Positions 20,826 to 47,997 of a stretch of 64,000 nucleotides of DNA are shown here, in pieces. The DNA comes from a virus. The notes below the pieces were generated by a model. That model was not told the origin of the DNA. It worked only from the letters and a program-made list of their open reading frames with translations, and ran no database searches. Numbering within the stretch: position 1 is the first letter of the stretch; every line of letters starts with the position of its first letter. The stretch is from positions 34,874 to 98,873 of the IMG/VR virus record IMGVR_UViG_3300027763_000040; one strand, written 5' to 3'. A program made the translations under genes and the position numbers.

Positions 20826-20829
20826 ATAA

Positions 20830-22467: not shown

Positions 22468-22485
22468 AATAACTAAAAAAATTTA

Positions 22486-28185: not shown

Positions 28186-28898
28186 AGGATTACCATTTTT
28201 TGATGACCGACACGAACTTTTGGATTGCACCAGATTTCAAATCCATGATCTCTGATATCTTCACACATAGCAACATCTTCAGAACACATATCTTCAAGAA
28301 CAATTCCATCTTCACGAATGAGTTGAACTTTCTTTGGTGCAAACCAAGGATAAGGAATCTTTTCAAAGATACCTTTCTTCATCAGAACCCAACCAAATCC
28401 ACAGTATTCAATCTTAAATGGTTCTGAGCGGCGTTGCATATCTTCAATCGTTTCAAAATAATAAGAACCCTTCTCAAGAAGAAGTTTCTTATCCATATTC
28501 ACAACAACAGTTGATTGATTGGATACAGGAGTTCCATTCGACTGAACATACCATCCAGTAGAAATATCCTTATCCATTTGCAGAAGTTCTATCAGATCTT
28601 CTGTCTTAAAAATAATATCACTATCGATCCACATAATATAGTCATAAGGAACTTGACCCCTCCATGGAGTCAGTAGTGTCCCTGCAAAGTTATCTGCCTG
28701 CAGACAATCAGTTCTGGCGAAGTTTACCATCGAACTGTATTTCTGCGAAATATAAAAGTTGATTCCCATTTGATTGAGATCAAACAAAAGGCGAATCATC
28801 TGAGTCATAAAGGTTCCTGAATATGAAAATCCAGGAAGACAGAATGCTATTGTTTTTCCCTTGAAATCATTCTTCGGTTGATTTGAATAATTAAGCAT
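28182..28898 (-). CDS. GT-A-like glycosyltransferase (238 aa)
   Basis: First gene of the glycan operon. KTIAFCLPGFSYSGTFMTQM, SMVNFARTDCLQADNFAG, YDYIMWIDSDIIFKTEDLIELLQMDKDISTGWYV, YCGFGWVLMKKGIFEKIPYPWF, CSEDVAMCEDIRDHGFEIWCNPKVRVGH. It shares the order of motifs (IDSDI, ISxGxY, GFGxxxxxxGxFE, PWF/PWY, EDxxxCEx, VxVGHxK) with its downstream neighbour. An extended -10 promoter lies just upstream. Confidence 0.78.
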   Translation of the reverse strand: MLNYSNQPKNDFKGKTIAFCLPGFSYSGTFMTQMIRLLFDLNQMGINFYISQKYSSMVNFARTDCLQADNFAGTLLTPWRGQVPYDYIMWIDSDIIFKTEDLIELLQMDKDISTGWYVQSNGTPVSNQSTVVVNMDKKLLLEKGSYYFETIEDMQRRSEPFKIEYCGFGWVLMKKGIFEKIPYPWFAPKKVQLIREDGIVLEDMCSEDVAMCEDIRDHGFEIWCNPKVRVGHQKMVIL

Positions 28899-28943: not shown

Positions 28944-31900
28944 TTACCACCAGGTTATTTTAACATATCCATTTCCACCCGAAGCACCATCTCCAAATCT
29001 ATTTTGTTCTTGAGAATATCCTCCACCACCTCCACCACCTCCACGAGTTCCAGCGCCACCATCTCCTGCCACAGATTGTGTTGTGGATGATGCAGTAGCA
29101 AGAGTTCCCGAAGGTCCAGCAGCAACAAATGAGGACCCATAAATCAATCTTGTAATATTAGTCGTACCAAATCCAGAAGATCTTACAATCCATGCGATTG
29201 CATCAGTTGAAGATCTGATTGCCCCACCAACACTACCAGCAACATAAATGTTATTAGTATAAGCAAGAGCATTAATCGCGGATGTACCAAATCCTGATGT
29301 TCTTAACGACCAAGTAATCGTATCCGTTGAAGTACTTAAGATTCCATTGTTTCCAGCAGCAACATAAGCACCGCCTAGACCACCATAGGTAAAGGCATTA
29401 ATCGCTGTTGTAGTAAATGTATTAAATCCAGAAGTTCTTATGGCCCAGTTGATATTATCAGTAGAGATCATAATATTGTATTCATTCAGAATATTTGTTG
29501 CTGATGCTACTGTGTAAAGTCCTTCTGAATCTAAAGCAGTGATTGATGTAGTATTATTTGCAGTTGTTCTAACTGTCCAGGTTATCGTATCTGTGGATGC
29601 TTGCAATAATCCGCCAGTACCGTAAGAAAGTAAAAGAGTTTGAGTAGAAGTTGCAATAGTCCCACCTCCACCACCGATTACATAAAGGTTATTGCCATAA
29701 GCACCACAAAAAATTGATGTTGCACCAAACCCAGATGTTCTTAATGCCCAAGTAATACCATCGGTCGATGTTCTTTGTTGTCCATTTGTCGTTGCAATAT
29801 AAAGACCATCATTATAAGTTAATCCATAGGAGTTAATAGCATTTATAAATCCAGTAGTTCTTAATATCCAGTTAATAGTATCGGTTGAAGTTGCAAGGTA
29901 TGTTGAGTTGCCTGAAGCAACTATAAATGTATTTGTTGGCAAAGATCCATAAACTGAAGAGAATAATTGAGAACCTGGGGATCCAGAAGTTCTTAAGGTC
30001 CAAGAAATCGTATCTGTAGAAGTTGCGATACCACCAGATCCACCAGTTGTATACAAATAAACTCCATTTCCATATGTAAATGTATAGGCATAAGATGGAA
30101 ATATAGCGGTTCTCAATTGCCAATTAATATTATCAGTAGATGCTGCTAAGAAATAATTTGTACTGAAGATTGAGTCATTTCCCCACCCTAAAGTAAAAGC
30201 ACCAGCGGAAGAAAATCCACCAGTTGAACCAAAATTTTCAGTTCCTAATGGTGCAGTTCTTGTGGTCCAAGATACAGAATCAGTTGATGCTCTTAAAAAT
30301 GCTCCATTACCATAAGAACTTAAAATTGTTTGAGTTGATGTTACCAAAGTACCAGAAGCACCTCCCATTATATAAGTATCAGTTCCATAAGCAAGTGTAT
30401 TAATATCAGAAATGCCAAATCCAGAAGTTCTTAAAATCCAAGTAATCGCATCAGTAGAAGTTCGAGTGGTTCCAGATGCACCAGCAGCAACATAAAGATT
30501 ACTATTATAAGCAAGAGTACTAATTGTGGATGCACCAAATCCTGATGTTCTTAAAGTCCAATTAATAGTATCTGTTGAAGTATTTAATATTCCATTGTTA
30601 CCACCAGCAACATAAACGATCCCATAACCAAAAGCATTAATCGCCGTCGCACCAAATCCAGAAGTTCTTAAAACCCAGTTAATGTTATCTGTAGAAACAA
30701 TTAAATTACCACTAATATTTCCTGAACTTACACCAGAAGCAAAAGAATAAGAACCACCAGAACCTAATGTAACAATATCTACAATCTGGGAATAAGTTCT
30801 CAAAGACCAAGATATTGAATCTGTAGAAGCACTCAAAAGTGAATAGATAGGATCAACAGAAGAGGCAGTTGATAGAGTGTTTGTTGCGTTAGATGCTATT
30901 AAAAATAGATTATTCCCAAAAGTAGATGCAAAAATTACTGTAGTACCGAAACCAGAACCTCTTAGAGTCCAAGTAATACCATCTGTAGAAGATGAATTAG
31001 TTCCAGAAGCGCCACCAGCGCCATAGGTATTATTACCATAAGAAAGTGTATTAATCTGAGAAGTACCAAATCCAGAAGTTCTTAAAGTCCAAGCAATTGT
31101 ATCTGTTGAAGATAATAAGGTTCCAGAAGCACCCCCAACAACATAAAGATTTGATCCATTATAAGCAAGTGTAAGAATATTGGAAGTACCAAACCCAGAG
31201 GTTCTCATAGTCCAAGCAATCGCATCCGTTGATACCGATATTGCACCACCAGCAGTTGCAGCAATGTAAGCATTGCTTCCATAAACAACAGCACTAATTG
31301 AAGATGTACCAAACCCTGTTGTTCTCAAAGTCCATTGAATAGCATTTGTAGAAGATATTAATCCTGCTATTCCACCAGATCTACCGCCAACATATTTTTC
31401 TGTTGGTGTTACACTATATGCGAGAGTAGAAACCACTCCACCACCAAGAAATCCACCAGTTCTTAAAGTCCAGTTAATTGTATCTGTTGAAGTTCTTATC
31501 TGTGGCCAAGAATCTCCAACAACATAGATACCGCCACCGAAGACCATCGTTTGCATAATTGATGCTGGGGCCGCGTTTGCAGAAGTTCTTAAAACCCATT
31601 GAATAGCATTTGTAGAAACTTGAACAGAAGCATTTGTTCCATAACCACCAGCAAGATAGAATCCATTACCAAATGTAAGAGCACCAAGACCCGTTGAAGT
31701 TCCAACAACTGTTCTCTGAGTCCATACTAATGGTTCCCCTCGACTATTAATTAAATATTCACCATTAAAGTAAGTAGAACTAACAATACCAGTTGATCCA
31801 AATCCTGATGTTCTTAAAGTCCAAGAGATTGTATCTGTTGAAGATATTAATGTTCCAAGAGATTCTCCCATATAGTTTGTTGTTGCTGCAACATAATAAC

Positions 31901-34900
31901 TACTACTTGAAGCAAGAGTAGTAATTGATTGAGTATTAGTGACCGTTGTTCTTAAGATCCAAGTAATTGCATCAGTAGAAGCAGCAAAATATGCTCCAGT
32001 ACCAAACGAAGATAAGATTGTTTGAGTTGATGTGACAATCACACCCGCAGCTGCGGCAGCAACATAGTTGGTTCCGTCAGATGCCATTTCAACAAAATCT
32101 TGTACTGTTCCAGAAGTTCTAGTAATCCAAGTGATTGTATCTGTAGAAGTTGCGATTCTTCCTCCAACAGACGCAGTAACATAAAGATTACTATTATATA
32201 CTAAACCATATATTCCACTTGTACCAAATCCAGAAGTTCTTAATACCCATTCAATACCATTCGTTGAAGATACTATTGAACCAGAGTTACTAGTGGCAGT
32301 ATAAGTACTTGATACATAAACTATATTTGTACAACCTCCACTCATAGGTGATGTTCTTGTTGTCCAAGCAATTCCATCTGTGGATGCTCTTAAAAGTGGT
32401 CCACTACCTCCAACATAATAGTCAGATCCATCATAAATAGCAGATACAATGCTAGATGTTCCAAATCCAGAAGTTCTGATTGTCCAGGCAATAGAATTGG
32501 TAGAAGAACTTAATCTACCACTTTGCCCAGCAATAATATATTTTTCAGTTTCACTAGACCCATAGGAAATAGATCCAATCCAAGAAGTTCCAAATCCTGA
32601 TGTTCTCAAAAACCAAGAAATCGTATCCGTAGAAGTAAGAAGACCTCCAGAAGTTACAGCACCACCAACAATAAAGTAGTTAGTTCCATCATAAGTTCCA
32701 GATTGTGTATCAAAAAATGGTGCTATAACAGGAGATGTTCTTGCGGTCCAGGACACACCATCTGTTGATGCTCTCAAAAATCCAGTGGATGTTACTGCAG
32801 CAACATAAAGACCATTTCCATATATTAATCCTTGTATTGTGGAAGTACCAAATCCTGAAGTTCTTAAAGTCCACATTACTGAGGGTGAATTTCCACCAAC
32901 ATAATAATTCGTACCTTTGAAACCAGATGCATTAATTGAACCAATAGTTCCAGAAGTTCTTAGAGTCCAAGTAATAGATGTAGAACTTCCTCCAATTAAA
33001 TATTCACCATTAAAATATGAATAAAAATTGATTCCACTGGATCCAAATCCAGAACTTCTTAATGACCAAGATACTCCATCTGTTGATGTAGAGATAAGAC
33101 CACCAGCAATTCCATTAGATCCTCCAATCAAAAACGAAGTTCCACCATAAATTGCATGAAAAATAGTAGGACTTGCCCCAAATCCAGAAGTTCTTAAAGT
33201 CCAAGTAACTAATGTTGATGCAGCACCACCAATCAGAAACTCATTATTAGAATAAGTAACTGCACTAATCGTAGTTGTTCCAAATCCAGTGGTTCGTGCG
33301 ATCCAGGTGATATTATCTGTAGAAGCAATCAAAGCAGTCTGAGAAATATAGTTTGTTCCCGCCGCAACATAGTAACTATTACTTGTAGATAATAATGTGA
33401 TTGTTTGAATATTGGAGTTAGTTCTTAAAGTCCAAGATACTCCATCAGTCGAAGCAGTTAGTAATCCACCATTTCCAAGAGAACTTAAAGTACTTTGTGT
33501 CGAAACTGCTAAAGTTCCTATATTACCACTAGCAATATAAGTGTTGTTATTATAAAAAATACTTAACATATTACTATTTAAGTTTGAAGTTCTCAAAATC
33601 CAAGTAATACCATCAGTTGAAGTTGTATTGGTTGGTCCTGCTCCGCCAGCAGTAAAAATACCACCATTATAAGCGATGGTATAGATTATATTAGAACCAA
33701 ATCCAGCAGTTCTTAAAGTCCAAGAAATGGTATCGGTGGATGTTGAAAGATATCCAGATGTTCCACCACCAACATAAAGATTAGATCCATTATAAGCAAA
33801 TGTATAGATGTTTTGCGTCGTTCCAGATGTTCTCAATATCCAAACAGTCGCATTAGTGGATACGAGAATCTGTGCTGGAGAAGAACTTGGTGAAACAACA
33901 TAAGGATTTGAAGCGCCAGTTGCATAGGTAAATGCAGCAGAATAACTCGTTACCGCTGTTGGTAAAGTTGCACTTTGAGTCCAAATAATAGAATCCGTAG
34001 AGTTAATAAAGATTGGTGGATTTGTGTTTGAACTCAAAATAGAAAATCTACCATCCACATAAAGCATACTTGAATATTGTGCCGCAGTAAATCCAGCAGT
34101 TCTTACCGTCCAGGTAATCGCATCAGTTGAAGCAGTGATCCACTGACCATTGCCACAAGCAACATATCTTCCAACACCATAAGCAACAGATCCAATCGCT
34201 GTTGTACCAAATCCAGAGGTTCTTAAAGTCCAAGTGATAGCATCTGTCGAAGACGCAAGAACTCCAGATTGAGCACAATAAAGATAAAGTGATGATCCAT
34301 CATAAGTAATCGGATATCCACCAGTGGTAAATCCACCAGGACCAATATTGGCAGATACTTGACCAGAAGTTCTTAAGACCCAGGTAATAGTTGGTGTAAA
34401 TCCTCCAGCAACATGGAAACTATTACCATATGTAAGCGCAGCAATCGCGGTTGTACCGAATCCAGAAGTTCTTAAATACCAACTATTGATTCCAGTCGAA
34501 AGTGCTCCTCCACCTCCACCACCAGATCCAATGTTTCCAGTATAAGATCCAGGAATACCATCAATGCCATTACCACCAGAAGCACTTCCTGCAGTATTAT
34601 ATGCATTTCTATAATAATATGTTAGAGAGTTTCCACCCGCTCTTGTATTAAATGCACCACCACCGCCACCAGTAACTTGATATGTATTTGATTGAATTGC
34701 ATTGTTTACACTTGCCCATGATGTTAATCCAGCACCACCAGCAAGACCAGCAGTAGTATAAAGTGGGTTTAAAGTCACTGCGGCTGCGGCACCTGCAGTT
34801 CCTGCAGTTACATCGGATGAAGATGCTCCAGTTCCTCCAGAAGATGTTAAGGTATAAGTAGCGGTTCCTGTTGGAGATTTTCCAGTCCAAGTTAGGGTTG

Positions 34901-37900
34901 TATTTCCACCAGATGTGGGTGTAATTAATAATCCCGATCCCCCAGCAAGAAAAACAGTTCCATAAGTAAGACCATAAAGTGAAGTTAATGCACTATTTGT
35001 TCTTAAAGTCCAAGTAATCGCATCAGTTGATGTTACAGTAGTACCACCATACTGATTGACAAAAATTCCAGAATTATAAATTACTCGATAAGATCCAATA
35101 GCATTTGGAGTAGTTCTAATTGTCCATCTAATTGTATCTGTGGAACTTGCAAGTTTATTAAATCCCGCTGCAATATGAATTCCATTACCATATGCCAAAT
35201 TGTTAAGTTGCTCTGCACCAATTCCAGATGTTCTTGCAGTCCAACGAATAGCATCAGTTGATACAAAAATATTACCATTAAGATCCCCAACAATATATGG
35301 AGTTGATTCCGAAGATACATAATTTGATGAAAGTATTGAACTTGATCCACCACAAGTTCTAATTGTCCAAGTAATAGCATCGGGACTTGTGATTATTGCC
35401 CCATTAACACCAGTCATAACATAAGTTCCACTTGGTGCAGTACCATACATTAAAGAATATTGGGTAGAGTTTGGAATTCCACTAACTCTTATAGTCCAAA
35501 CAATCGCATCAGTGGATGTCCCATAATAACTTGGAAATATTCCAACATCAGTTCCAAAAACATATAATGATCCCGAATAAATCAAAAGTGGGCCACCCCC
35601 TAAACTTCGTCCAATTCGAGTTGTTCCAAATCCAGATGTTCTCAAAATCCAAGTATTTGTATCAACAGATGTTGCAATTGTTCCAGAATCTCCAACTGCA
35701 ACATAAAGAGAATTTCCATATACAAGATGATTAATTGTAGTTGCTCCAAAAGCACTGTTTGTTCTGGTCCAAATAATCCCATCAGTACTACTAATCATTG
35801 TTTTAATATTACCACCAGTTCCTCCAGTACCTGGAGTTACTGTGATTGTGGGCGCATCTCCAAATTCTAGACGACGAATCAACCAAGAGTTATAAGCACC
35901 ACCACCTCCTCCACCACCAGATCCAACAGTTCCAGTTGCTTTTCCTGCTGCTCCGCCTCCACCAGCACCGATTGCTTCAATATAAATCTGAGATGCTGTT
36001 GGAGGAATATAAAAAGTTTGTGCTCCTGATGCAGTAAACTCCTGATATCCTCGATATATTGGAGAACCGATTGTACTAGATGTAGAGTTAATCGTTTGCC
36101 ACTGTTTTGCAGTTATATTGGAAACCGCAAGAGTTCCAGATACACCACCAGCAACAATCGAAGAACCATAAACAGAAGTTGTGATTGAAGTAGATCCAAA
36201 TCCACTAACTCTCGAAATCCAAGAGATTCCATCTGTAGATATTGCTAGTGTTCCCGCAGAACCAAAGGCAACAAATTGGGTTCCACCATAAAATAAACTA
36301 TTAATCGCCGTCGTACCAAATCCAGTTGTTCTTAAAGTCCAAGAGATTGTATCTGTAGAAGTTCTTAAGAGACCAGCATTGCCAGCAATAGTATAAGTAT
36401 TATTACCATAACCAAAAGCATTAATCGCCGTCGCACCAAATCCAGAAGTTCTTAAAACCCAGTTAATGTTATCTGTAGAAACATTTAAAAATCCAACTTC
36501 ACCCATATAGTTGGTTCCATGAGCAAAAGCATAAGAACCACCAGAACCTAGTGCAGTGATTGCTAGTGTATTAACTGCAGTTGTTCTAGAAGTCCAAGAA
36601 ACTCCATCAGTTGATGCCCGTAAAAGTGCTCCAGTTCCAAATGAAGATAAGATTGTTTGATTGGAAGTTTGTATGTCTCCAGTATTAGTACCAAAGACAT
36701 AGATATCATTTCCAACTCCAATCGTCGATATTGCAGTTGTACCAAATCCAGAAGTTCTTAAGACCCAAGTAATCGTATCAGTCGATGTTACAGTACTTCC
36801 ATTTTGACCAGCACCTACATAGACTCCATTATTATAAGTAAGTTGTAATAGTGATGTAGATCCGAGTCCAGAAGTTCTTAAGACCCAATGAATCGCATTC
36901 GTTGAAACGGTTATATATGTTGCACCACATCCAAGATATAGATTATTTGCATAGATTAATCCAACTAATGAGTTACCAGCACCAATCGCAGTAGTTCGAA
37001 TCACCCAAGCAATCGAATCTGTGGAAGATGATGTGAATGATGGTACAGATGCAACATATTTTTCAGTTGCATTTTGCCCATATGCCAAAGCATTAATGGT
37101 ACTTGTACCAAATCCTGTTGTTCTTAAGGTCCAAGAAATAGTATCTGTCGAAGATATAATAGTACCAGATGATCCTCCAGTAACATAAAGACTTCCACTA
37201 TATACGAATGTTGGTCCACTATTACCAACACTGTTTCCCAGAGTGGCAGTTGTTCCAACGGTTCTCGCTGTCCAGTTAATACTATCAGTCGAAACAAGAA
37301 CATTACCTTGATTCAAATAGTTATTTGATGTTGCAAGATAATATCCACCACCAGATGTTAAGGCAGTAATACCTTGAGTGTTGAGTCCTGCAGTTCTTAA
37401 TGCCCAAGAAATAGTATCGGTTGAAGCCCTTAAAATTGCACCATTACCAATCGATCCCAAAATACTTGTCGTTGATGTTGAAATTGTAGGTACTGAAAAT
37501 CCAGGTCCTGCCACCACAAAAGTATTATTACCATAAGTGGAGGTATATATTGTAGATGTACCAAATCCAGAAGTTCGTGCAATCCAAGTAATCGCATCAG
37601 TTGATGTTGCAGTATTTCCACCAGCACCACTCGCATTAAAAATTCCATTACCATAGGTCAATGCATACACATTGGCACCCATTGTACCTACAGTTCTTAA
37701 AACCCAACTAATACAATCCGTAGATGATGCAATATTAAACCCACCGATAACATATAAAGAATTTCCATAAGTGGAAGTAAAAATTGCATTAGCAGGAAAT
37801 CCAGTGGTTCTTAAAACCCAGTTAATTCCATCAGTGGAAGATGAAAATGATCTAGCAACATTAGTAGTTACGCCATATGTATTGATTGGGGTATTCCCAT

Positions 37901-38930
37901 AAACAATTGAATATATGCTAACAAATCCCAATCCAGTTGATCTTGCAAACCAACTAATTGAATCGGTAGAAGTTGAGAAATAACCTCCACTACCACCCAC
38001 AAGATAAACTCCATTTCCATAATTGATGAGAGGTCCAACATCAATAGCATTTGAATAATCTAAAGTAGTTCCAGAAGTTCTCTTAGTCCAAAAAATACCA
38101 TCTGTCGAAACTGTTATGGATCCAGCAAGACCAGTAGCAACATATAAATTATTACCATATCCAACATTATGAAGAGCAGTTGTACCATATCCCGTAGTTC
38201 TCGAAACCCAATTGACTGCATCGGTTGAAGTTAATAATACTGCTCCCGTTCCTCCTGCAAGATAAAGATTGTTTCCATATCCTAAAGAGTATGGAGTAAA
38301 TACTGTACCAAAAGTTCTTTGAGTCCAGGTTGTATAATCAGCATACCCACCAGCAAGATAGATTCCATTATTATATGCGATACTATAAATCGCTGTTGTA
38401 CCAAATCCTGAAGTTCTTAAAGTCCAAGAAACGGTTTCTGCTCTACCAGCAATCAAATATTCATTGTTAAAATATATTGATTTTGCAATATTAGTTGTAC
38501 CAAATCCTGATGTTCTTAAAGACCAGGAAACAGAATCAGTTGAAGAAGTTAAGGTTCCAGAAACTCCAGAAGCAACATAATTTGTTCCTGAAGATGCTAA
38601 GTTATTGATCGCGGAAGTACCGAATCCTGATGTTCTTAAGGACCAGGAAACAGTATCGGTTGAAGTTGTTAATGTTCCAGAATCTCCACCATTAACATAA
38701 ACAGTTCCATAAGTCGCAGCATTAATATTAGTAGTACCAAATCCAGAAGTTCTAAGTGTCCAGTAAAATGCTCCAGGATAAACACTTAAAAACTTACCAC
38801 CATTTCCAGATACAGATGGATATATTGGAGTACCAGTTAATACAGCATCTGCATAAGTCTTATTTGCCGCATCTGTTGTATTAACTACTGTACTAATACC
38901 AGTAATATTATTGCTGCCTAATATTGCCAT
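28944..38930 (-). CDS. Giant Asp-box repeat adhesin / tail fibre (3328 aa)
   Basis: The N-terminus MAILGSNNITGISTVVNTTDAANKTYADAV resembles cyanophage fibre attachment starts and is shared with the two following genes. Most of the protein is a repeat of about 45-50 aa of the type TSTDTISWTLRTSGFGTTAI-LAYGNNLYVAGGASGTL. The S-T-D-x-I-x-W core is an Asp-box (BNR) as in sialidase-like and Ycf48-like propellers; well over fifty copies are visible. A polyglycine-rich domain is split into three parts (near 36050-35800, 34910-34500, and the C-terminus), with repeat arrays inserted between them. The end GGGGGGGGYS...GGNGYVKITWW is shared with the two sister proteins. Likely a long receptor-binding or glycan-binding fibre. 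Codon use is like its neighbours. Confidence 0.85.
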   Translation of the reverse strand: MAILGSNNITGISTVVNTTDAANKTYADAVLTGTPIYPSVSGNGGKFLSVYPGAFYWTLRTSGFGTTNINAATYGTVYVNGGDSGTLTTSTDTVSWSLRTSGFGTSAINNLASSGTNYVASGVSGTLTSSTDSVSWSLRTSGFGTTNIAKSIYFNNEYLIAGRAETVSWTLRTSGFGTTAIYSIAYNNGIYLAGGYADYTTWTQRTFGTVFTPYSLGYGNNLYLAGGTGAVLLTSTDAVNWVSRTTGYGTTALHNVGYGNNLYVATGLAGSITVSTDGIFWTKRTSGTTLDYSNAIDVGPLINYGNGVYLVGGSGGYFSTSTDSISWFARSTGLGFVSIYSIVYGNTPINTYGVTTNVARSFSSSTDGINWVLRTTGFPANAIFTSTYGNSLYVIGGFNIASSTDCISWVLRTVGTMGANVYALTYGNGIFNASGAGGNTATSTDAITWIARTSGFGTSTIYTSTYGNNTFVVAGPGFSVPTISTSTTSILGSIGNGAILRASTDTISWALRTAGLNTQGITALTSGGGYYLATSNNYLNQGNVLVSTDSINWTARTVGTTATLGNSVGNSGPTFVYSGSLYVTGGSSGTIISSTDTISWTLRTTGFGTSTINALAYGQNATEKYVASVPSFTSSSTDSIAWVIRTTAIGAGNSLVGLIYANNLYLGCGATYITVSTNAIHWVLRTSGLGSTSLLQLTYNNGVYVGAGQNGSTVTSTDTITWVLRTSGFGTTAISTIGVGNDIYVFGTNTGDIQTSNQTILSSFGTGALLRASTDGVSWTSRTTAVNTLAITALGSGGSYAFAHGTNYMGEVGFLNVSTDNINWVLRTSGFGATAINAFGYGNNTYTIAGNAGLLRTSTDTISWTLRTTGFGTTAINSLFYGGTQFVAFGSAGTLAISTDGISWISRVSGFGSTSITTSVYGSSIVAGGVSGTLAVSNITAKQWQTINSTSSTIGSPIYRGYQEFTASGAQTFYIPPTASQIYIEAIGAGGGGAAGKATGTVGSGGGGGGGAYNSWLIRRLEFGDAPTITVTPGTGGTGGNIKTMISSTDGIIWTRTNSAFGATTINHLVYGNSLYVAVGDSGTIATSVDTNTWILRTSGFGTTRIGRSLGGGPLLIYSGSLYVFGTDVGIFPSYYGTSTDAIVWTIRVSGIPNSTQYSLMYGTAPSGTYVMTGVNGAIITSPDAITWTIRTCGGSSSILSSNYVSSESTPYIVGDLNGNIFVSTDAIRWTARTSGIGAEQLNNLAYGNGIHIAAGFNKLASSTDTIRWTIRTTPNAIGSYRVIYNSGIFVNQYGGTTVTSTDAITWTLRTNSALTSLYGLTYGTVFLAGGSGLLITPTSGGNTTLTWTGKSPTGTATYTLTSSGGTGASSSDVTAGTAGAAAAVTLNPLYTTAGLAGGAGLTSWASVNNAIQSNTYQVTGGGGGAFNTRAGGNSLTYYYRNAYNTAGSASGGNGIDGIPGSYTGNIGSGGGGGGALSTGINSWYLRTSGFGTTAIAALTYGNSFHVAGGFTPTITWVLRTSGQVSANIGPGGFTTGGYPITYDGSSLYLYCAQSGVLASSTDAITWTLRTSGFGTTAIGSVAYGVGRYVACGNGQWITASTDAITWTVRTAGFTAAQYSSMLYVDGRFSILSSNTNPPIFINSTDSIIWTQSATLPTAVTSYSAAFTYATGASNPYVVSPSSSPAQILVSTNATVWILRTSGTTQNIYTFAYNGSNLYVGGGTSGYLSTSTDTISWTLRTAGFGSNIIYTIAYNGGIFTAGGAGPTNTTSTDGITWILRTSNLNSNMLSIFYNNNTYIASGNIGTLAVSTQSTLSSLGNGGLLTASTDGVSWTLRTNSNIQTITLLSTSNSYYVAAGTNYISQTALIASTDNITWIARTTGFGTTTISAVTYSNNEFLIGGAASTLVTWTLRTSGFGASPTIFHAIYGGTSFLIGGSNGIAGGLISTSTDGVSWSLRSSGFGSSGINFYSYFNGEYLIGGSSTSITWTLRTSGTIGSINASGFKGTNYYVGGNSPSVMWTLRTSGFGTSTIQGLIYGNGLYVAAVTSTGFLRASTDGVSWTARTSPVIAPFFDTQSGTYDGTNYFIVGGAVTSGGLLTSTDTISWFLRTSGFGTSWIGSISYGSSETEKYIIAGQSGRLSSSTNSIAWTIRTSGFGTSSIVSAIYDGSDYYVGGSGPLLRASTDGIAWTTRTSPMSGGCTNIVYVSSTYTATSNSGSIVSSTNGIEWVLRTSGFGTSGIYGLVYNSNLYVTASVGGRIATSTDTITWITRTSGTVQDFVEMASDGTNYVAAAAAGVIVTSTQTILSSFGTGAYFAASTDAITWILRTTVTNTQSITTLASSSSYYVAATTNYMGESLGTLISSTDTISWTLRTSGFGSTGIVSSTYFNGEYLINSRGEPLVWTQRTVVGTSTGLGALTFGNGFYLAGGYGTNASVQVSTNAIQWVLRTSANAAPASIMQTMVFGGGIYVVGDSWPQIRTSTDTINWTLRTGGFLGGGVVSTLAYSVTPTEKYVGGRSGGIAGLISSTNAIQWTLRTTGFGTSSISAVVYGSNAYIAATAGGAISVSTDAIAWTMRTSGFGTSNILTLAYNGSNLYVVGGASGTLLSSTDTIAWTLRTSGFGTSQINTLSYGNNTYGAGGASGTNSSSTDGITWTLRGSGFGTTVIFASTFGNNLFLIASNATNTLSTASSVDPIYSLLSASTDSISWSLRTYSQIVDIVTLGSGGSYSFASGVSSGNISGNLIVSTDNINWVLRTSGFGATAINAFGYGIVYVAGGNNGILNTSTDTINWTLRTSGFGASTISTLAYNSNLYVAAGASGTTRTSTDAITWILRTSGFGISDINTLAYGTDTYIMGGASGTLVTSTQTILSSYGNGAFLRASTDSVSWTTRTAPLGTENFGSTGGFSSAGAFTLGWGNDSIFSTNYFLAASTDNINWQLRTAIFPSYAYTFTYGNGVYLYTTGGSGGIATSTDTISWTLRTSGSPGSQLFSSVYGSLPTNTFIVASGNSTYLATSTDTINWILRTTGFINAINSYGLTYNDGLYIATTNGQQRTSTDGITWALRTSGFGATSIFCGAYGNNLYVIGGGGGTIATSTQTLLLSYGTGGLLQASTDTITWTVRTTANNTTSITALDSEGLYTVASATNILNEYNIMISTDNINWAIRTSGFNTFTTTAINAFTYGGLGGAYVAAGNNGILSTSTDTITWSLRTSGFGTSAINALAYTNNIYVAGSVGGAIRSSTDAIAWIVRSSGFGTTNITRLIYGSSFVAAGPSGTLATASSTTQSVAGDGGAGTRGGGGGGGGYSQEQNRFGDGASGGNGYVKITWW
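29090..38770 (-). repeat. Asp-box repeat arrays in the 3328-aa adhesin
   Basis: DNA repeat of roughly 135-150 bp. The most constant stretch is the complement of CCAAATCCAGAAGTTCTTAA, encoding LRTSGFG. Interrupted by Gly-rich segments at about 36050-35800 and 34910-34500. A less frequent module (TQTILSSFGTGA...ASTD...VSTDNINW) recurs at about 37450, 36640, 33480, 32010, 30840, 30320 and 29630, at irregular spacing. Confidence 0.85.
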
Positions 38931-38951
38931 TTATTCAACATTAATATAAGT

Positions 38952-38959
38952 TATTTATT
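38952..38959 (-). promoter_or_regulatory. Late promoter AATAAATA before the giant adhesin
   Basis: AATAAATA 21 bp before the ATG at 38930, overlapping the stop of the preceding fibre gene. Confidence 0.6.
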
Positions 38960-41684
38960 ACCACCAGGTGATCCTCACAAATCCATCGCCACCATTTCCA
39001 CCATTCGCAAAAGTAGATCCAATGGCAGCACCTCCACCTCCACCACCTCCACGAGTTCCATTACCACCTGCGCCAGCACTTGATATACCAGCACCTCCTC
39101 CACCTCCACCAAAACCATAAGGAAGTGAAGTGATTGCAATACCAACTGCACCATTCGATCCTGTATTACTTCCACCAGCAGAGAAAATAGTATTGCCATA
39201 GAAAGTAATCGAACCACCACCACCTCCTGCGGAAGATGGTGTTCCTGCTCCACTACCACCGCCCGTTGATTGGAATGAGTTTGCCTGTGCCGTAGCAGAC
39301 ACTCCAACACCATTGATCGCAGTAACACCACCAGGGCCGCCAGCAGTTGTATAATAATAATTCGTGATATTTGTTTGAGCAATTCCAGCAACACCACCAG
39401 CACCACCACCATTTGCAACTAGTGTATAAGTTCCTCCAGGGCCAGTCCATGATATTGTTGTTCCTGCTCCTGCAGATCCAGAACTAGTTTCAGTTGTTGC
39501 TCCAGTTCCACCGACTCCAATATTTACACTTACATTTGAAGTTACTATAGATTTGGGAATATACCAAGAAGTATAAGAACCTCCAGAACCGCCAGTACCA
39601 GATAACTGAGATTGTGCAGTAATTAAAGATCCAGATACTCCAGCAACATAGTAATTATTATTCACAGATATTGATGATCTTAAAGATTGTGTCGTATTAG
39701 AAGTATTTACTCTCCAAACTATAGCATCTGTTGAGACATAAACTCCTCCATTATCACCTGCCAGAAGATAACTCAAAGATGCAGAAGAATATGAAAGAGT
39801 ATAGATTGAATCTCCAGAAAACCCTACAGTTCTTAGAGTCCAAGTGATTGCATCAGTTGAAGAGGTTAAGAATTTATCAGATCCTGCAGATACATAAACA
39901 GACCCATAAGTAAGTGTATTAATCGCGGAAGTACCGAATCCCGATGTTCTTAAGATCCAGGTAATAGTATCAGTTGAAGTATTTAAGATTCCATTATTAC
40001 CGCCAGCAACATAAACAGTTCCATAACTAAAGGCATTAATCGCAGTTGAACCAAATCCAGAAGTTCTTGCAATCCAGTTAATATTATCTGTAGAAACATT
40101 TAGGAATCCAATATCACCTCTATAGTTGGTTCCATGAGCAAAGGTATAAGAACCACCAGAACTTAGTAAAGTTACAGTTAATGTATTGAGTGCTGTAGTT
40201 CTTAAGACCCAAGTTATGCCATTAGTTGATGCTTGGAGACGGGCCCCAGTTCCAAATGAAGATAAGATTGTTTGATTGGAAGTTTGTATGACTCCAGAAC
40301 TTCCCCCAAAAACATATATGTCTTGACCAAAGATACTCGTATAAATGTCATTACCTGAAGGAGAAGTTCTCAATACCCATGCAATACCATCCGTAGAAGT
40401 TAGATTAGTTCCAGATGCACCAGCAGCAACATATAAGTTATTATTATGGGAAATGGTATAAAGATTACTTACAGTTCCAGAAGTCCTAAATGTCCATTGT
40501 ATGGCATTAGTAGAAGTTTCAATAAATCCCGAGTTGCCAACTATAGCATAAACAGAACCTACCGCAATATTGTTAAGCGTAGTGGTAGTTGAAGAAGTTC
40601 TGAATGTCCAGTATATGGTATTCGTCGAAGTTTGTATATATCCACTAATACCCGCAAGAACATAGTAGTTACTACTCAGAGTACTATAGATTCCAGAATA
40701 CACATAATTTGGATTCATTGGTACGGGACTAGTTCTTGTAAACCAACCAATACCATCAGTTGAAGTTGTTATTATTGCAGAAGCACTTAGATAAGTTGGA
40801 GTTGGTAAAGATCCATATAATACAGTATGTATTCCATAAATACCAGCAACCATAGGAGCATTGGTTCTTGTAGTCCATACGATTCCATTTGTAGAAGTTC
40901 CTGTTCCTCCGCTATTCGAATTATTAATGAACACATATAAATTATTCCCCAAAATAAGACCAGAACCAGCACCATTATTACCATTTCCAACTTGATTTAA
41001 AGGAGAAGAAATAGTTCTAAGTACCCAAGAAATAGTATCCGTGGAAGTTGCTAAATTTGAAGAATTTCCACCAGCAAAATAAGTATTATTAGCATAAAGA
41101 GATGCTAAAAAACCATTACCAGTTCCAGAAGTTCTTAAGACCCAGGTAATCGTTTCTACTCTTCCACCAATCAAATGTTCATTATTAAAGTAAGTTGCAC
41201 TATTAATATTGGTTGTTCCAAATCCTGAGGATCTTACAATCCAAGTGATTGTATCAGTTGAAGATCTCAATGCTCCTCCTGCTCCAGAAATAACATAAGT
41301 TGTTCCACCTGATGTAATATTTGAAATCGTCGTCGATCCAAAACCAGAAGTTCTTAATGACCAAGTAAGACCATTTTTTGCAAAAGTAGATCCAGTTGTT
41401 CCAGTACTTCCACCACCTCCAGCACCAACTGCCTCAACATATAAAAGATTTGCCTGAGAAGGCACTGTAAATGTTTGTGGAGATCCTGTTGTAGAAAACT
41501 CTTGATAGTTTGAAACATAATCCCATGAAACACTTGTACCATCAGTCGTAGTTAAAAACTCTCCATCATTTCCAGTTTGTGATGGCAATGTTGAAAGATT
41601 ATCGACATAAGACTTATAAACACCATCAGTTCCCTGAGTTGCTGTTGTAATGCCAGTAATAAAATTAGATCCTAGTATTGCCAT
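38958..41684 (-). CDS. Asp-box/polyglycine adhesin paralogue (908 aa)
   Basis: Begins MAILGSNFITGITTATQGTDGVYKSYVD, close to the giant adhesin. A polyglycine domain starts at YQEFSTTGSPQTFTVPSQANLLYVEAVGAGGGG. It is interrupted by one array of Asp-box repeats (about 41380-39600) and resumes at LSGTGGSGGSYTSWYIPKSIV, running to GGNGGDGFVRITWW. The repeats are closely related to those of the neighbour, for example the YFNNEHLIGGRVETITW module. Ribosome site GGAG eight to eleven bases before the ATG. Probably a receptor-binding fibre or fibre tip. Confidence 0.82.
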   Translation of the reverse strand: MAILGSNFITGITTATQGTDGVYKSYVDNLSTLPSQTGNDGEFLTTTDGTSVSWDYVSNYQEFSTTGSPQTFTVPSQANLLYVEAVGAGGGGSTGTTGSTFAKNGLTWSLRTSGFGSTTISNITSGGTTYVISGAGGALRSSTDTITWIVRSSGFGTTNINSATYFNNEHLIGGRVETITWVLRTSGTGNGFLASLYANNTYFAGGNSSNLATSTDTISWVLRTISSPLNQVGNGNNGAGSGLILGNNLYVFINNSNSGGTGTSTNGIVWTTRTNAPMVAGIYGIHTVLYGSLPTPTYLSASAIITTSTDGIGWFTRTSPVPMNPNYVYSGIYSTLSSNYYVLAGISGYIQTSTNTIYWTFRTSSTTTTLNNIAVGSVYAIVGNSGFIETSTNAIQWTFRTSGTVSNLYTISHNNNLYVAAGASGTNLTSTDGIAWVLRTSPSGNDIYTSIFGQDIYVFGGSSGVIQTSNQTILSSFGTGARLQASTNGITWVLRTTALNTLTVTLLSSGGSYTFAHGTNYRGDIGFLNVSTDNINWIARTSGFGSTAINAFSYGTVYVAGGNNGILNTSTDTITWILRTSGFGTSAINTLTYGSVYVSAGSDKFLTSSTDAITWTLRTVGFSGDSIYTLSYSSASLSYLLAGDNGGVYVSTDAIVWRVNTSNTTQSLRSSISVNNNYYVAGVSGSLITAQSQLSGTGGSGGSYTSWYIPKSIVTSNVSVNIGVGGTGATTETSSGSAGAGTTISWTGPGGTYTLVANGGGAGGVAGIAQTNITNYYYTTAGGPGGVTAINGVGVSATAQANSFQSTGGGSGAGTPSSAGGGGGSITFYGNTIFSAGGSNTGSNGAVGIAITSLPYGFGGGGGGAGISSAGAGGNGTRGGGGGGGAAIGSTFANGGNGGDGFVRITWW

Positions 41685-41694
41685 TTATTTTCTC

Positions 41695-44439
41695 CTATTG
41701 CCAACTAATACGAACATAACCATCACCACCATTTCCACCAAATCCTGGAACAGTGCTTGCACCATCATATGCTCCACCACCACCACCGCCTCCACAAACT
41801 CCATTTCCACCACGGCCCGCCTTTGTTGCAGTCGTCGCAATCATATCTGAACCACTGCTCACAAGTAGAAAAATATTATTTCCAAAACACCCACCACTGA
41901 CATTACCACCATTAACCCATCCACCAGTTCTTAAGTGCCAAGTAAAAGAATCGATAGATGCATGAACATAATTAGAATTGCCAGCAGCAATATAAGTCCC
42001 ACCACCATAAATTGAAGCATATGGATCACTACTTAAAGTTCTCACAATCCAAGTAATGGTATCAGTAGAAGTAGAAACACTATTACCACTTCTATTAGAT
42101 GCTATAAATCTTCCATTGCCATATGCCAATGATGAAACATCGCCAATACCGCCTATACCCAAAGTTCTTGCAATCCAAACAATACCATTTGTAGATACAT
42201 TAATCACTCTAGAAGCTGCTCCAAGAATATATTGATCATTATCATAAATTATAGAATAAATTTGTCCCGTTGTTCCAGCAGTTCTTAGTTGCCAAACAAT
42301 GGCATCCGTAGAAGCAATTAGAGCACCAGAGGCGCCAACACCATAAAAAAATCCACCTTGATATGACAAAGAAGGTCCAGAAAAAGTACTTCCAATTTGA
42401 TTTGCAGTTCCAGATGATCTAAATGTCCAGTTGATTGAATCAGTAGAACTTCTTAATCCAGAGTTTCCATCAATCACATAAACACCATTACCATAAACTA
42501 CCCCCAAAATTACACTAGCACCATAAGAAGAAGTTCTCAAAACCCAAACAATACTATCGGTAGAGAATCCCAAGCGGCCACCATCACCACCATAAATGTA
42601 ATTTGATCCATCATAATAAGTCGTATAAAGAACAATACCACCGGTATTGGCAGTTCTTAATCTCCAAAAACTTCCGCCAAGAGCATTCGAACTTCCACCA
42701 TTTCCACCATAACCATAAGAAAGTCCAGTAATGTTTGTTGCACTTGTACCATTCATATTTCTCTGATCTAATGTGGAAGATACAGTATTTCCATAATAGT
42801 TAATTGTACCTCCCAAAGATCCATAAGATCCATAAAAATTTGAACTATTTGTGTTAGAGTTAGAAACTGCTCCACCACCACCACCAGTAGTTTGAAAAGA
42901 TGAAGTTGCAGTTGTTGCATTTGATGGTACTTGAAGTGCCTCAAAAATACCACCATTACCACCAGCAGTTCCAGCAGATGCTTGAAGATAATTTGATGAT
43001 GCCGTTATTGTACCTCCTGCCCCACCAGGAAGTGATTGAGTTGAAGAGTTATATACATTAGTTCCAGCACTTCCACCATTTGCAGTTATAGAAAAGTTTC
43101 CTCCAGGTCCTGCCCAAGATACTACACTCGAATCTCCAGATGCTCCATATACACCACCTTTTCCAACTTTAACGGTTAATGTAGTGCCACTAATATATGC
43201 TTTTGAAATATTCCAAGATGCCGCTGCTCCTCCACCTCCACCACTTCCAGCAAATCCAGTAGGAGGTAAAGCAGCACCAATATATCCAGAATCACCACCG
43301 ACAACAAAAGTATTATTGCCATATACCACTCCTTTCCAACCACTACCAAAAGCACCTGGTGAAGTTCTGAATGACCAAGTAACAGTATCAGTAGAAAAGA
43401 ATATAAATCCAGCACCACCAACAGCATAATAAGTATTATTCGCAAAAGTTGTTGCATATAAAGATTGTAAATAACTTACACTAGTTCTTGCAGTCCAAGT
43501 AACTGCATCTGTAGAAACAATTATATCGGCAGATGTACCAGTAGCAAAATAAAGACCATTTCCATAAGATACACTAATATAAAAATTATTATTAACTCCA
43601 GTTCTAATTACCCAAGTAATACTATCTGTAGAAGTTTGAAATCTTCCAGAACCACCACTAGTAACATATTGATCTCCAGCATAAAGAATTCTATATATTG
43701 CATTTCCGGTAGGATATCCAGAAGTTCTTAAGGACCAGGTAATGCCATTTGTAGAAGCAAAAATACGAGCATCATTATCTAAACCAAGAACATAAATGCC
43801 ATTATTAAATTCTAAAGCATTAAGTCTAGCAGTACTGGCACCTGTTGTTTGCATTGTCCAAGTGATACTATCAGTAGAGGTAATTAATTTTCCAGCATTA
43901 CCACATACAACATAAAGATTTCCACTATACACGATAGAACCAATTGCAGTTGCACCAAATCCACTTGTTCTCGTAATCCAAGTAATTGCATCAGTAGAAG
44001 CAAGAACTGCTCCACCATCAGTTCCTGCATAAAATACATTGTTCGCATATATCATTCCTGGACCCTGATAATACCCTGAAATACTATTAGAATGACTAGA
44101 AGTTCTTAAAAACCATTGCCCAGCACCAGTGTTCACATAAGAAGATGCATCTCTAGTTCCTGATGCTCCACTCCCTCCAGCACCCGTTGCTTCTATGAAC
44201 AGTTGTTTTGCTTGAGACGGTACATTAAAGGTATACGTTCCAGCAGCAATATATTCTTGATATGATCCTACTGGTTGCCAAGATGAAGTATTGCCATTAG
44301 TGGTTAAAAAGTTATTATCTTGATTTGTTATTGGTGGACCAGATGCAGAAATATCCACATATTGCTTATTTACGGCATCAGACGCATTAGATACCGAATC
44401 AATACCAGTAACTTGAGTAGAACCTACACCGACTGGCAT
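41695..44439 (-). CDS. Asp-box/polyglycine adhesin paralogue (914 aa)
   Basis: Starts MPVGVGSTQVTGIDSVSNASDAVNKQYVD. The polyglycine domain (YQEYIAAGTYTFNVPSQAKQLFIEATGAGG) is interrupted twice by Asp-box arrays: about 44130-43250 and 42680-41830. Between them lie Gly-rich stretches (SGGGGGAAASWNISKAYI, SFQTTGGGGGAVS). It ends CGGGGGGGAYDG then GGNGGDGYVRISWQ. The second insertion sits in a different loop from that of the 908-aa protein. One base after the S74 fibre gene stop in the operon order. Confidence 0.82.
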   Translation of the reverse strand: MPVGVGSTQVTGIDSVSNASDAVNKQYVDISASGPPITNQDNNFLTTNGNTSSWQPVGSYQEYIAAGTYTFNVPSQAKQLFIEATGAGGSGASGTRDASSYVNTGAGQWFLRTSSHSNSISGYYQGPGMIYANNVFYAGTDGGAVLASTDAITWITRTSGFGATAIGSIVYSGNLYVVCGNAGKLITSTDSITWTMQTTGASTARLNALEFNNGIYVLGLDNDARIFASTNGITWSLRTSGYPTGNAIYRILYAGDQYVTSGGSGRFQTSTDSITWVIRTGVNNNFYISVSYGNGLYFATGTSADIIVSTDAVTWTARTSVSYLQSLYATTFANNTYYAVGGAGFIFFSTDTVTWSFRTSPGAFGSGWKGVVYGNNTFVVGGDSGYIGAALPPTGFAGSGGGGGAAASWNISKAYISGTTLTVKVGKGGVYGASGDSSVVSWAGPGGNFSITANGGSAGTNVYNSSTQSLPGGAGGTITASSNYLQASAGTAGGNGGIFEALQVPSNATTATSSFQTTGGGGGAVSNSNTNSSNFYGSYGSLGGTINYYGNTVSSTLDQRNMNGTSATNITGLSYGYGGNGGSSNALGGSFWRLRTANTGGIVLYTTYYDGSNYIYGGDGGRLGFSTDSIVWVLRTSSYGASVILGVVYGNGVYVIDGNSGLRSSTDSINWTFRSSGTANQIGSTFSGPSLSYQGGFFYGVGASGALIASTDAIVWQLRTAGTTGQIYSIIYDNDQYILGAASRVINVSTNGIVWIARTLGIGGIGDVSSLAYGNGRFIASNRSGNSVSTSTDTITWIVRTLSSDPYASIYGGGTYIAAGNSNYVHASIDSFTWHLRTGGWVNGGNVSGGCFGNNIFLLVSSGSDMIATTATKAGRGGNGVCGGGGGGGAYDGASTVPGFGGNGGDGYVRISWQ

Positions 44440-44440: not shown

Positions 44441-44959
44441 TCAACTTCCCTCTAGTTTTTCTTTCAGTTTTTGTATTTCTATATTTTGTTCCTTGATTGC
44501 TTCAATTAATAGGGCAATAAGATTTGCATAAGCAACAGATTTTTTTTCATAATCTGGTGCGGGTCCTTTGGGATATACAATCTCAGGTACAATTTTTTCA
44601 ACTTCCTGTGCGATTAAACCGATTTGATGTTCTCCATTGTCTATGCGGTCATATTCAACCCCTCTCAGTGCCAATACCTTTTCAAGAGCATTTTCAAGAG
44701 GTTTAATATTTTTTTTAAGTCTTTCGTCAGAGTTTGCAGTAACTGTTCCAGAAACAACAATGTTTCCTGCTGTTGTATTATTTGCAACTCCAACTCCAAG
44801 TCCACCAGAAATATAAGCACTACCAGTTACTTGAAGTGGTTGAGATGCTGTTCCTGTAGATGTTGCAGTTCCCACTAATATTGGTCCAGAAGTAACTTGA
44901 AGTTTATTATCAACAGTTGCATCACCATAGATTCTTGTACCAGATTTAAGTTTTGCCAT
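44441..44959 (-). CDS. Tail fibre with C-terminal S74 intramolecular chaperone (172 aa)
   Basis: ATG at 44959 (MAKLKSGTRIYG) overlaps the upstream stop by one base. The first 75 residues are a short fibre segment (VTSGPILVGTATSTGTASQPL, SAYISGGLGVG). Then SDERLKKNIKPLENALEKVLALRGVEYDR, HQIGLIAQEVEKIVPEIV and SVAYANLIALLIEAIKEQN form a peptidase S74 domain, which helps trimerise the fibre and then cuts itself off at the leading Ser. The C-terminal coiled coil (IEIQKLKEKLE) is typical. Very short for a fibre, so it may cap other fibres. Confidence 0.85.
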   Translation of the reverse strand: MAKLKSGTRIYGDATVDNKLQVTSGPILVGTATSTGTASQPLQVTGSAYISGGLGVGVANNTTAGNIVVSGTVTANSDERLKKNIKPLENALEKVLALRGVEYDRIDNGEHQIGLIAQEVEKIVPEIVYPKGPAPDYEKKSVAYANLIALLIEAIKEQNIEIQKLKEKLEGS

Positions 44960-47900: not shown

Positions 47901-47997
47901 ATATCAATCGTTCCCTCTGTATAGCACGAGGAATGACTATGGTATTTGTGGAAGGTGTAAATGTATATCCCGTTTCCAGTATTGCCTTTCTTGCCAT
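44959..47997 (-). CDS. Large cyanophage virion structural protein (1012 aa)
   Basis: Starts MARKAILETGYTFTPSTNTIVIPRAIQRERLILITNV, a cyanophage-conserved opening. Further segments: FRTSQAQALIDTDFEYGTQITKWENLAMINNRPF, RYFRYQSGKGIQVSSGTSLKPN, WYGCFNRLGAFDSQNGIFFEFDG, SQWNLDKCDGTGPSGYNLDLSKMQMFYLDYSWYGAGFVRWGFRG. It is beta-rich with Thr/Asn/Gly, like baseplate or fibre-network proteins, and sits in the fibre operon under a late promoter. Homologues are abundant in virions of related phages, but no precise T4 equivalent is known to me. Confidence 0.75.
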   Translation of the reverse strand: MARKAILETGYTFTPSTNTIVIPRAIQRERLILITNVTTNTVIYNFSDSNLKANAYTVLTSGGGNTTTTTIVLNYSTAAMSSTDKLQIIVDEYDEKFTPSEIYTDPVNKFRTSQAQALIDTDFEYGTQITKWENLAMINNRPFSFPSAIGIATISSINIPTNSRTVTVGLQGAAPGIGTAISVQDCYLNIANGNFIVETNSGVGNTIFTYTARATNTGTVTNIFDPNKTVINNGIVYTSAAIGSTPSFAWTSGTEITVNTTVPHGLAIGNQIAVIGTTETVANGSFVVTTINSSTQFVYYANNTPSAVPTGGLIYVRPQGQFLHRPFDGGVIFSNNASSNFESATRQTRRYFRYQSGKGIQVSSGTSLKPNLQIDSLTYNPATNLVTVQTKEQHNIQASTPGTTITISGANETGYNGSYNITSVTGYNTFQYTPLTTPSATIASGTYICNISGWYGCFNRLGAFDSQNGIFFEFDGQTLYAVRRNSTFQLSGRVSVVSGNNAVVQTNETFPTRFSKQLNIGDFIVLRGQSYRVVDIASDTSMTISPSYRGATADFVIISETIETKIPQSQWNLDKCDGTGPSGYNLDLSKMQMFYLDYSWYGAGFVRWGFRGADGNVIYCHKQVNNNVNTEAYLRTGNLPARYESISVPATTYLTSTLNSGDTLVSVASTLGFPSAGTVVIRNANTYEYVNYTGIGTTTFIGLTRGKPGNASLSLTVPLGSNIATGSTTNLQVGQRVIGGFPESTYVSALGIGTIYLSQASTALNPTVTIAPMGATVGQTFTYSATDPTAIELAFPTYGPSISHWGTSVIMDGRFDDDKSLIFTYGQVGITTLAATGATGSTRALIAIRVAPSVDNGVAASFGTRELINRMQLKLVALDLTSLTANSNILVRAFLNTTPSTATNWTNAVGNVANIQNSSLAQIADYASVGGATGVQVIGGEVTAGFFVGSGANSIDLTQVRDLGNCILGGGGATSGIGIYPDGPDTLTIVATNLSATATNVATRLSWTEAQA

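Follow-up and report, generated by a model that had tools for sequence, protein, structure and literature searches.

Three consecutive open reading frames (ORFs) on the minus strand of IMG/VR virus record IMGVR_UViG_3300027763_000040, here called A, B and C, encode proteins that appear to be built by recursive self-insertion. In this reading seven-bladed propellers serve as both plug and socket, form branched single-chain trees, and are swapped as cassettes between sockets, genes and phages, which would diversify virion binding. We put its probability at about three in four. The window, meaning the whole stretch of DNA analysed, is a 64,000-nucleotide part of the 98,873-base record. All three ORFs are intact. 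A preliminary description of this DNA had seen the arrays of Asp-box repeats as inserts in one glycine-rich (Gly-rich) domain; it missed that the larger arrays are propellers plugged into each other recursively, with all array sizes multiples of seven. We consider it highly probable that these are nested-propeller proteins of tail-fibre type from a T4-like cyanophage, subject to cassette exchange and likely acting as a virion adhesin. Coordinates are collected in Table 1, and L numbers denote the loci of relatives.

Blade units and brackets

The Asp box lies in the C-D hairpin and is repeated in each blade, in the form S-T-D-x-[IV]-x-W; the canonical Asp box is one residue longer. We define the unit as starting at one D-strand Trp, taking in strands A, B and C and ending at the D-strand Trp that follows, ∼40 residues in most cases. 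In the nested arrays of the window the distance from strand B to the next Trp falls into three classes: ∼6–7 residues, with no C strand (short units), 11–23 residues (ordinary units) and 27–33 residues, with an extra C strand (long units). For a few units, A 2888 and B 220 among them, the profile gave a wrong distance, and spacing decided their class. A short unit is read as an opening bracket and a long unit as a closing one.

The classes differ in other measures. In perfectly parsed arrays of at least 14 blades the median spacing is 33 residues for short units (n = 53), 41 for ordinary units (n = 379) and 57 for long units (n = 53). An Asp box, as [ST]x[DN] before the next D strand, is present in 377 of the 379 ordinary and all 53 long units, and in 7 of the 53 short ones.

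Hand matching of the brackets in the window arrays, done before any parser was written, gave every propeller seven blades. The parser groups the 98 blades of the window (arrays of 21, 7 and 42 in A, 14 in B, 7 and 7 in C) into 14 propellers, each with exactly seven blades and with a nesting depth of up to four. When the classes were permuted within an array, a parse into sevens throughout was obtained in 0 of 200,000 permutations for the 42-blade array, 35 of 20,000 for the 21-blade array and 762 of 20,000 for the 14-blade array. As an example of the map, the 21-blade array of A has an outermost propeller with blades at residues 57, 96 and 136 and again at 779, 824, 864 and 904, a middle one at 169 and 509–722, and an innermost one at 202–449. 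Of 53 nesting events in perfectly parsed arrays, 13 place the child in blade 1, 23 in blade 2, 14 in blade 3 and 3 in blade 4, with none in blades 5–7, although these events are not independent because related proteins share them by descent.

Predicted fold of a nested module

A fold alignment was assembled from nested children, each with the D-A-B strands of its parent before it and the C'-D-A-B strands after it. It has 35 rows, taken from 39 children (37 after removal of near-copies) with two uncertain L058 rows omitted. AlphaFold2 modelled its first row, A 2364–2735, with a predicted local distance difference test score (pLDDT) of 77.1 and a predicted template modelling score of 0.75; inside the child, ten-residue blocks mostly score 70–94. 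VIA-align placed model residues 39–328 onto the whole of the designed seven-bladed propeller 7big (275/286, 2.4 Å, Z 31.5) and residues 37–329 onto 2z2p (283/293, 2.1 Å), with Z up to 33.5 to complete propellers. The bracketed child interval is model residues 40 to ∼327 and coincides with the aligned propeller. In the model, then, the child is predicted to be a propeller of its own with the parent strands left out, as bracketing requires, and this one module is predicted to form a closed ring of seven four-stranded blades.

The fold matches include the YCF48 photosystem factors. Among BFVD predicted structures the module matches a BNR-repeat protein of Synechococcus phage S-CBWM1 and the baseplate wedge initiator of S-SSM7. 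Curated Pfam propeller models gave nothing above cut-off in the window proteins, the only match being PF19755 (DUF6242) in the 914-aa (amino acid) protein C (25.2 versus 29 bits); in a relative, the 596-aa protein of L024, Kelch_1 is above cut-off (22.3 versus 20.1 bits). Judged by its model, the module seems to look and work like an Asp-box propeller, yet it is not filed as one by Pfam.

Host domain and insertion sites

We aligned the host parts of 49 proteins, with the arrays excised first; three rows (L028, L044 and L048) cannot be relied on, since their arrays were in part overlooked or broken up or the protein was incomplete. Inserts fall mainly at four sites, column numbers scattering somewhat within a site. 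Site N lies before YQEF and is used by proteins of the third-gene type. Site 1 follows GAGGGG (first and second gene), site 2 follows the TVTPGTGGTGG stretch (third gene, and the first-gene proteins of L019 and L020) and site 3 follows the YGxGGGGGG stretch (all three genes). The inserts of L058 map elsewhere, at alignment columns 414 and 451.

The host domain is that of Pfam family PF21722 (Gly_rich_2), whose curated cut-off is 24.3 bits. ORF B matches at 27.7 bits (residues 684–907, profile 26–225), ORF C just below the cut-off at 23.3 bits (residues 378–620, profile 20–216), and the start piece of the domain in ORF A at 35.5 bits (profile 1–73); a search of the whole 3328-aa ORF A with this profile found no match. 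Also below the cut-off are the C-terminal part of B alone (22.5 bits), L019 (20.2 bits) and L024 (18.3 bits). Propellers split the profile near positions 20–33, 73 and 202–216. In L014 and L034 nothing interrupts the domain between its start and site 3: residues 1–303 of the 1526-aa L014 protein match profile 1–202 at 40.4 bits and residues 1–296 of the 4380-aa L034 protein match profile 2–207 at 45.3 bits. These continuous matches show that the Gly-rich pieces belong to one domain. Searched against the PDB by sequence, the L034 host part matched no solved structure and the host alignment (A5) gave one chance-like match only (ribokinase, E 0.21).

The preliminary description had claimed a Gly-rich host domain common to the three ORFs, and these matches agree with it, as do the array numbers it gave (one in B, two in C, two and an N-terminal one in A). 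It had also placed the arrays at different loops. Several sites are indeed used (1 in B; 1 and 3 in C; N, 2 and 3 in A), but sites 1 and 3 are shared between proteins. The mapping across relatives that it proposed produced the four main sites above. Its picture of a modular scaffold, with compact propellers in the loops of one Gly-rich domain, is upheld by the AlphaFold2 model and VIA-align results for one module and by the continuous domain of L014 and L034. The rigid Gly-helix core that it suggested is putative, with no convincing sequence match among solved structures, and so is the lectin-like character of the propellers.

Parsing of relatives

The relatives comprise viral-contig ORFs that reach 250 residues and carry three or more Asp boxes, after removal of contained and near-identical ones, and the ORFs of four phage loci; a run needed three units to count as an array. 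They hold 124 arrays, five of which, at contig ends, were excluded. Of the 119 uncut arrays, 102 parse perfectly (19 of 26 among those with brackets), 166 of 192 groups are sevens, and array size is a multiple of seven in 104. The 4380-aa protein of L034 parses as 91 blades in 13 propellers at 13 nesting levels, each for the most part lodged in blade 2 of its parent; one of its openings is recovered by a rule that was introduced only once the miss had been noticed.

Nesting was found only in viral contigs of this three-gene type, in about a dozen IMG/VR viral lineages (counted by contig). Identical proteins recur (the 4380-aa protein in two records, a 3589-aa protein in two and the 1526-aa protein in three), and ORFs B and C complete with A nearly complete are present in three further contigs, although in both cases the records may not be independent samples. 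A phage collection holds four records with relatives of the 914-aa protein, three of the 908-aa protein and two of the nested pair, five distinct records in all. The parser calls no brackets in four of these five (DSL-LC03 left out), and the uninterrupted Gly domain of L034 has no match in that collection. The nested-pair alignment, searched against 84,980 bacterial and archaeal species, gave 10 pattern matches and no relative, the patterns being short so that distant nested proteins may escape. A one-propeller search of prokaryotes, with patterns likewise short, gave three loci (two Paenibacillus and one metagenome-assembled genome), all without short or long units.

Two further loci may be described here. 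The 2726-aa protein from L048:6902 onwards (part of it also in L032) reads by hand as 49 blades, seven propellers of seven, in a branched tree at one site, with blade 2010 included; the first part of this gene seems to lie in a separate upstream 1714-aa ORF that ends inside an array. The other case is the divergent lineage of L079 and L091/L095: it carries these three genes too and every array counted has seven units, but its Asp boxes are weaker and no nesting is convincing.

Trees compared and cassette exchange

Bracket-defined propellers have full-length counterparts at the same tree position in relatives. The outermost node of the site 3 array of A consists of pieces separated by >1,000 residues; it shares 83% identity over 282 aa with that of L012, 75% over 283 aa with that of L013 and 73% with that of L014 (rough cuts). 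The site 3 trees form a series, from [1[]3[2[]]] in L013, L014 and L022, through [1[]3[2[3[]]]] in L012, to [1[]3[2[1[]3[]]]] in the window; the L022 tree needed one correction at first and parses under the later rules. When the site 3 arrays of A and L012 are aligned blade by blade, a single gap of exactly seven blades remains, and L012 blade 1690, the counterpart of the socket that holds child r.3.2.1 in A, is an ordinary unit. This child is absent from its L012 socket, and its closest relative (77% aa) is a child in another L012 array. L022 and L013 align blade for blade, 28 to 28.

Only A/L012 at site 3 was used as a clean blade-level case. The N-terminal arrays of A and L012 align with gaps of 8 and 1, net seven, and the alignments of L012/L013, A/L013, L017/L019, B/L019 and L031/L022 have gaps of other sizes.

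Two children of A are nearly identical to their L012 counterparts. Child r.1 is 98.0% identical in aa, with a proportion of synonymous differences (pS) of 0.061, and child r.3.2.3 is 99.0% identical in aa and 99.4% in DNA (pS 0.004), whereas the parents around them are 76–85% identical in aa (pS 0.27–0.38). Such near-identical children inside diverged parents indicate that whole propellers have been exchanged as cassettes. For r.3.2.3 the DNA differences end two residues before its first Trp (2403) and resume six residues past the next Trp of the parent (2708), except for one at 2692. For r.1 the switch is sharp at the 3′ side (after ∼1831) and not sharp at the 5′ side. The opposite pattern is seen between B and L008, where the inner propeller is 45% identical in aa (pS 0.50), the outer one 80–82% and the host domain 88%. 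Child r.3.2.3 is also 76% identical in aa to the inner propeller of the L013 middle gene. From these kinships of r.3.2.1 and r.3.2.3 across arrays and genes, modules move between sockets and genes.

Proposed architecture and function

We propose that one Gly-rich host domain offers up to four sockets, one before it and three in its loops. Each socket would hold a complete seven-bladed Asp-box propeller, whose first D strand and last C strand would close its ring. That propeller would in turn be a socket, with another inserted between strands B and C of one of blades 1–4, and so on recursively. In the assembled nested geometry that we infer, one chain would yield a branched or Russian-doll protein. 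Entire propellers would be acquired, dropped or traded among phages of the group, probably by recombination within the repeated STDxIxWxLRT motif found at the border of each unit, which would fit the exchange breakpoints; selection would then retain only changes by seven blades. The product is most likely a multivalent receptor- or glycan-binding adhesin of the virion, its exchangeable modules varying host binding.

Several results weigh against this proposal. Seventeen of the 119 uncut arrays fail to parse. Seven of these have brackets: one in the 1714-aa ORF of L032, which ends inside the array; two in L048, one array being broken by an over-limit spacing; one in L053, which is cut at its 5′ end; one in L058; and two in L079, where each array has seven units and brackets were called falsely. 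The ten without brackets have 4, 5, 6 or 8 units (L028, two in L058, L069, L073, L074, L078, L080, L082 and L083). Several of these are incomplete or only distantly related, and L083 gives seven when read from further upstream. Since the parse rules were adjusted with most of these proteins in view, the parse percentages are not blind. The only fresh test of the frozen parser, on contigs found afterwards, was small. In it L112, a near relative of L031, parses in full (21, 7, 7); L054, which is truncated and closely resembles L017, gives three groups of seven and a last one of four at the cut; in L091 and L095, of the L079 lineage, two of seven arrays fail through false brackets, each with seven units; and L096–L098 have other architectures and do not parse.

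The structural results also include contrary ones. Blocks with the two closing strands of the child have pLDDT 57 and 55, so closure of the ring depends on weakly predicted residues, and the parent flanks score ∼34–66. The top Foldseek match in the PDB by E-value is an eight-bladed design (Tako8, root-mean-square deviation 8.4 Å). AlphaFold2 of the whole 908-aa protein with four orthologues gave pLDDT 34, and none of the three window proteins matches the Pfam BNR or lectin families.

The architecture could be right and the function other than adhesion, for example a structural spacer, a shield, an enzyme such as a glycan depolymerase, or a decoy. Similar-shaped propellers do have other roles, as with the photosystem factors among the fold matches. 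We think such a function unlikely, given the tail-fibre gene neighbourhood, the match of the Gly domain of relatives to minor tail proteins (PHROG 356; E 9e-14 for the N-terminal part of L034 and 2e-9 for that of L014) and the description of Gly-rich tips of other phages as receptor-binding in the sources cited below. Of the three window proteins only the 914-aa one matches tail PHROGs, weakly (PHROG 754, E 0.0019). A virion adhesin with exchangeable binding modules is the likely function, judging from gene context, the family resemblance of relatives to minor tail proteins and analogy with the Gly-rich tips.

Alternatively, the larger arrays might be beads on a string, seven-bladed propellers in series, with the short and long units reflecting nothing more than variable loops. 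Multiples of seven would be expected of such a series too, and proteins with two seven-bladed propellers exist (1nr0, from its title). However, in the perfectly parsed arrays of at least 14 blades the units at positions 7, 14, 21 and so on are ordinary in 51 of 53 cases and show no break, which contradicts a tandem series. The missing and extra C strands pair as brackets around sevens, as permuted classes seldom do; the AlphaFold2 propeller coincides with the bracketed child; and where brackets unite segments far apart in the chain, relatives show a single full-length counterpart. A serial arrangement is therefore very improbable.

An assembly artefact, in which collapsed or chimaeric metagenome repeats mimic nesting, is hardly credible. 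Both the window record and its nested relatives are contigs assembled from metagenomes, for which near-identical repeats are a recognised hazard, and the third gene of L032/L048 is split into two ORFs; against this, frames stay open over 10–13 kb, some proteins recur unchanged in two or more records (with the caution on independence given above), and an artefact would not respect multiples of seven. That the repeats adopt another repeat fold, or are degenerate unfolded sequence, would accord with the lack of a curated propeller family above cut-off in the window proteins, but merits almost no credence beside the pLDDT of most child blocks, the Z scores to complete propellers and dN/dS ratios of nonsynonymous to synonymous change (based on pN/pS) of 0.16–0.43 in parents and host pieces (0.67 in the inner propeller of B; 1.44 in r.3.2.3, from very few changes).

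If the nested reading of the brackets is right, a single polypeptide is a branched tree of one self-nested fold that obeys a checkable rule, sibling blades numbering seven. This would bear on the limits of domain insertion, on co-translational folding (a blade begun at residue 1484 waits for residue 3247 before its ring can close) and on the diversification of phage receptor-binding proteins by module swapping. It would also offer a natural template for programmable multivalent protein scaffolds.

Virus setting and gene neighbourhood

The window carries a psbA gene at 62065–63078. The 1012-aa virion structural protein encoded upstream of the S74 gene has relatives in 113 phage records, the majority of them Synechococcus phages and cyanophages, the S-RSM4 relative being 46% identical. 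On these two grounds the window is placed with T4-like cyanophages. In the annotation of two marine phages, the relative of the 1012-aa protein is followed directly by short genes. ORFs C, B and A follow one another after the S74 gene.

A second S74 chaperone domain was seen outside the window but within this virus record, in a 2086-aa open frame of locus L002 (G000:C1:12274-12453), with poly-Gly runs nearby. Further upstream in the window a 329-aa protein at 49026–50015 (PHROG 22713, of unknown function; locus L005) has eight GGGG runs and no Asp-box array, and frames at 51262–53835 (857 aa) and 54757–59532 (1591 aa), in the same direction, have many overlapping tail-fibre and collagen-like PHROG matches. 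Directly downstream of ORFs A–C, at 17900–28898, are matches to glycosyltransferase and methyltransferase PHROGs (2835, 29879, 2170, 2675, 34859 and 12406); from these sequence matches, the genes might act on virion or host glycans.

Table 1. Features of the three ORFs and the adjacent genes (window coordinates)
Feature	Coordinates	Strand	Description
ORF A, 3328 aa	28944..38930	minus	N-terminal segment, site N array, Gly-rich domain with inserts at sites 2 and 3; 70 blades, read as 10 propellers
A residues 53-946 (approximate)	36093..38774	minus	Site N; 21 blades, read as 3 propellers nested in line
A residues 958-1044	35799..36059	minus	Gly-rich domain start, PF21722 profile 1-73
A residues 1047-1345 (approximate)	34896..35792	minus	Single 7-bladed propeller, site 2
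A residues 1346-1480	34491..34895	minus	Gly-rich domain middle
A residues 1481-3287 (approximate)	29070..34490	minus	Site 3; 42 blades, read as 6 propellers in a branched tree, [1[]3[2[1[]3[]]]]
A residues 1517-1812	33495..34382	minus	Child propeller r.1
A residues 2020-2305 (approximate)	32016..32873	minus	Child propeller r.3.2.1
A residues 2403-2690	30861..31724	minus	Child propeller r.3.2.3; core of the AlphaFold2 query
A residues 3288-3328	28947..29069	minus	Gly-rich domain end
ORF B, 908 aa	38958..41684	minus	Gly-rich domain and one 14-blade insert, site 1
B residues 98-693 (approximate)	39606..41393	minus	Outer propeller, blades 108, 148 / 492, 537, 576, 615, 657; inner one inside blade 2
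B residues 181-477 (approximate)	40254..41144	minus	Inner 7-bladed propeller, D-strand Trp 181 to 436
B residues 694-908	38961..39605	minus	Remaining Gly-rich domain, uninterrupted
ORF C, 914 aa	41695..44439	minus	Gly-rich domain and single 7-bladed propellers at sites 1 and 3
C residues 99-393 (approximate)	43261..44145	minus	7-bladed propeller, site 1
C residues 589-872 (approximate)	41824..42675	minus	7-bladed propeller, site 3
179-aa protein	44441..44980	minus	Peptidase_S74 (endosialidase chaperone) domain; directly upstream of ORF C; tail-fibre context
1012-aa protein	44959..47997	minus	Virion structural protein (PHROG 5838), upstream of the S74 gene

Comparison with known systems

Gly-rich receptor-binding tips of tail fibres, of the polyglycine-sandwich type with its lattice of PGII helices, are described for gp38 of Salmonella phage S16 (6F45), gp38 of PP01 and gp24 of myocyanophage Pam3 (PMC6851490, PMC12892980, PMC9608196). 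They resemble the window proteins in having Gly-rich motifs parted by variable distal loops in a tail-fibre protein. Their variable loops are short, whereas the loops of the window proteins hold whole propellers, and, with no convincing sequence match to a solved structure, any common fold is putative. The host domain matches PF21722 but is split by propellers.

Asp-box propellers are likewise known (PMC3797127). The window modules are like these sialidase/BNR-like propellers, e.g. YCF48, in having the box between strands C and D with a Trp starting D, seven blades, and closure by N- and C-terminal strands. They are unlike them in the box, one residue shorter than the canonical form, and in being inserted into one another.

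Domain insertion, natural or designed, also puts one fold into a loop of another. Here, unlike in the general case, one fold would be inserted into itself repeatedly, in trees, to as many as 13 levels and with exchangeable modules. We found no description of nested propellers or of repeated self-insertion of a fold in the open-access literature, to which the search was confined, and this is weak evidence of absence. The parts are known (Gly-rich tips, Asp-box propellers, domain insertion), and what appears to be new is repeated self-insertion under a rule of seven.

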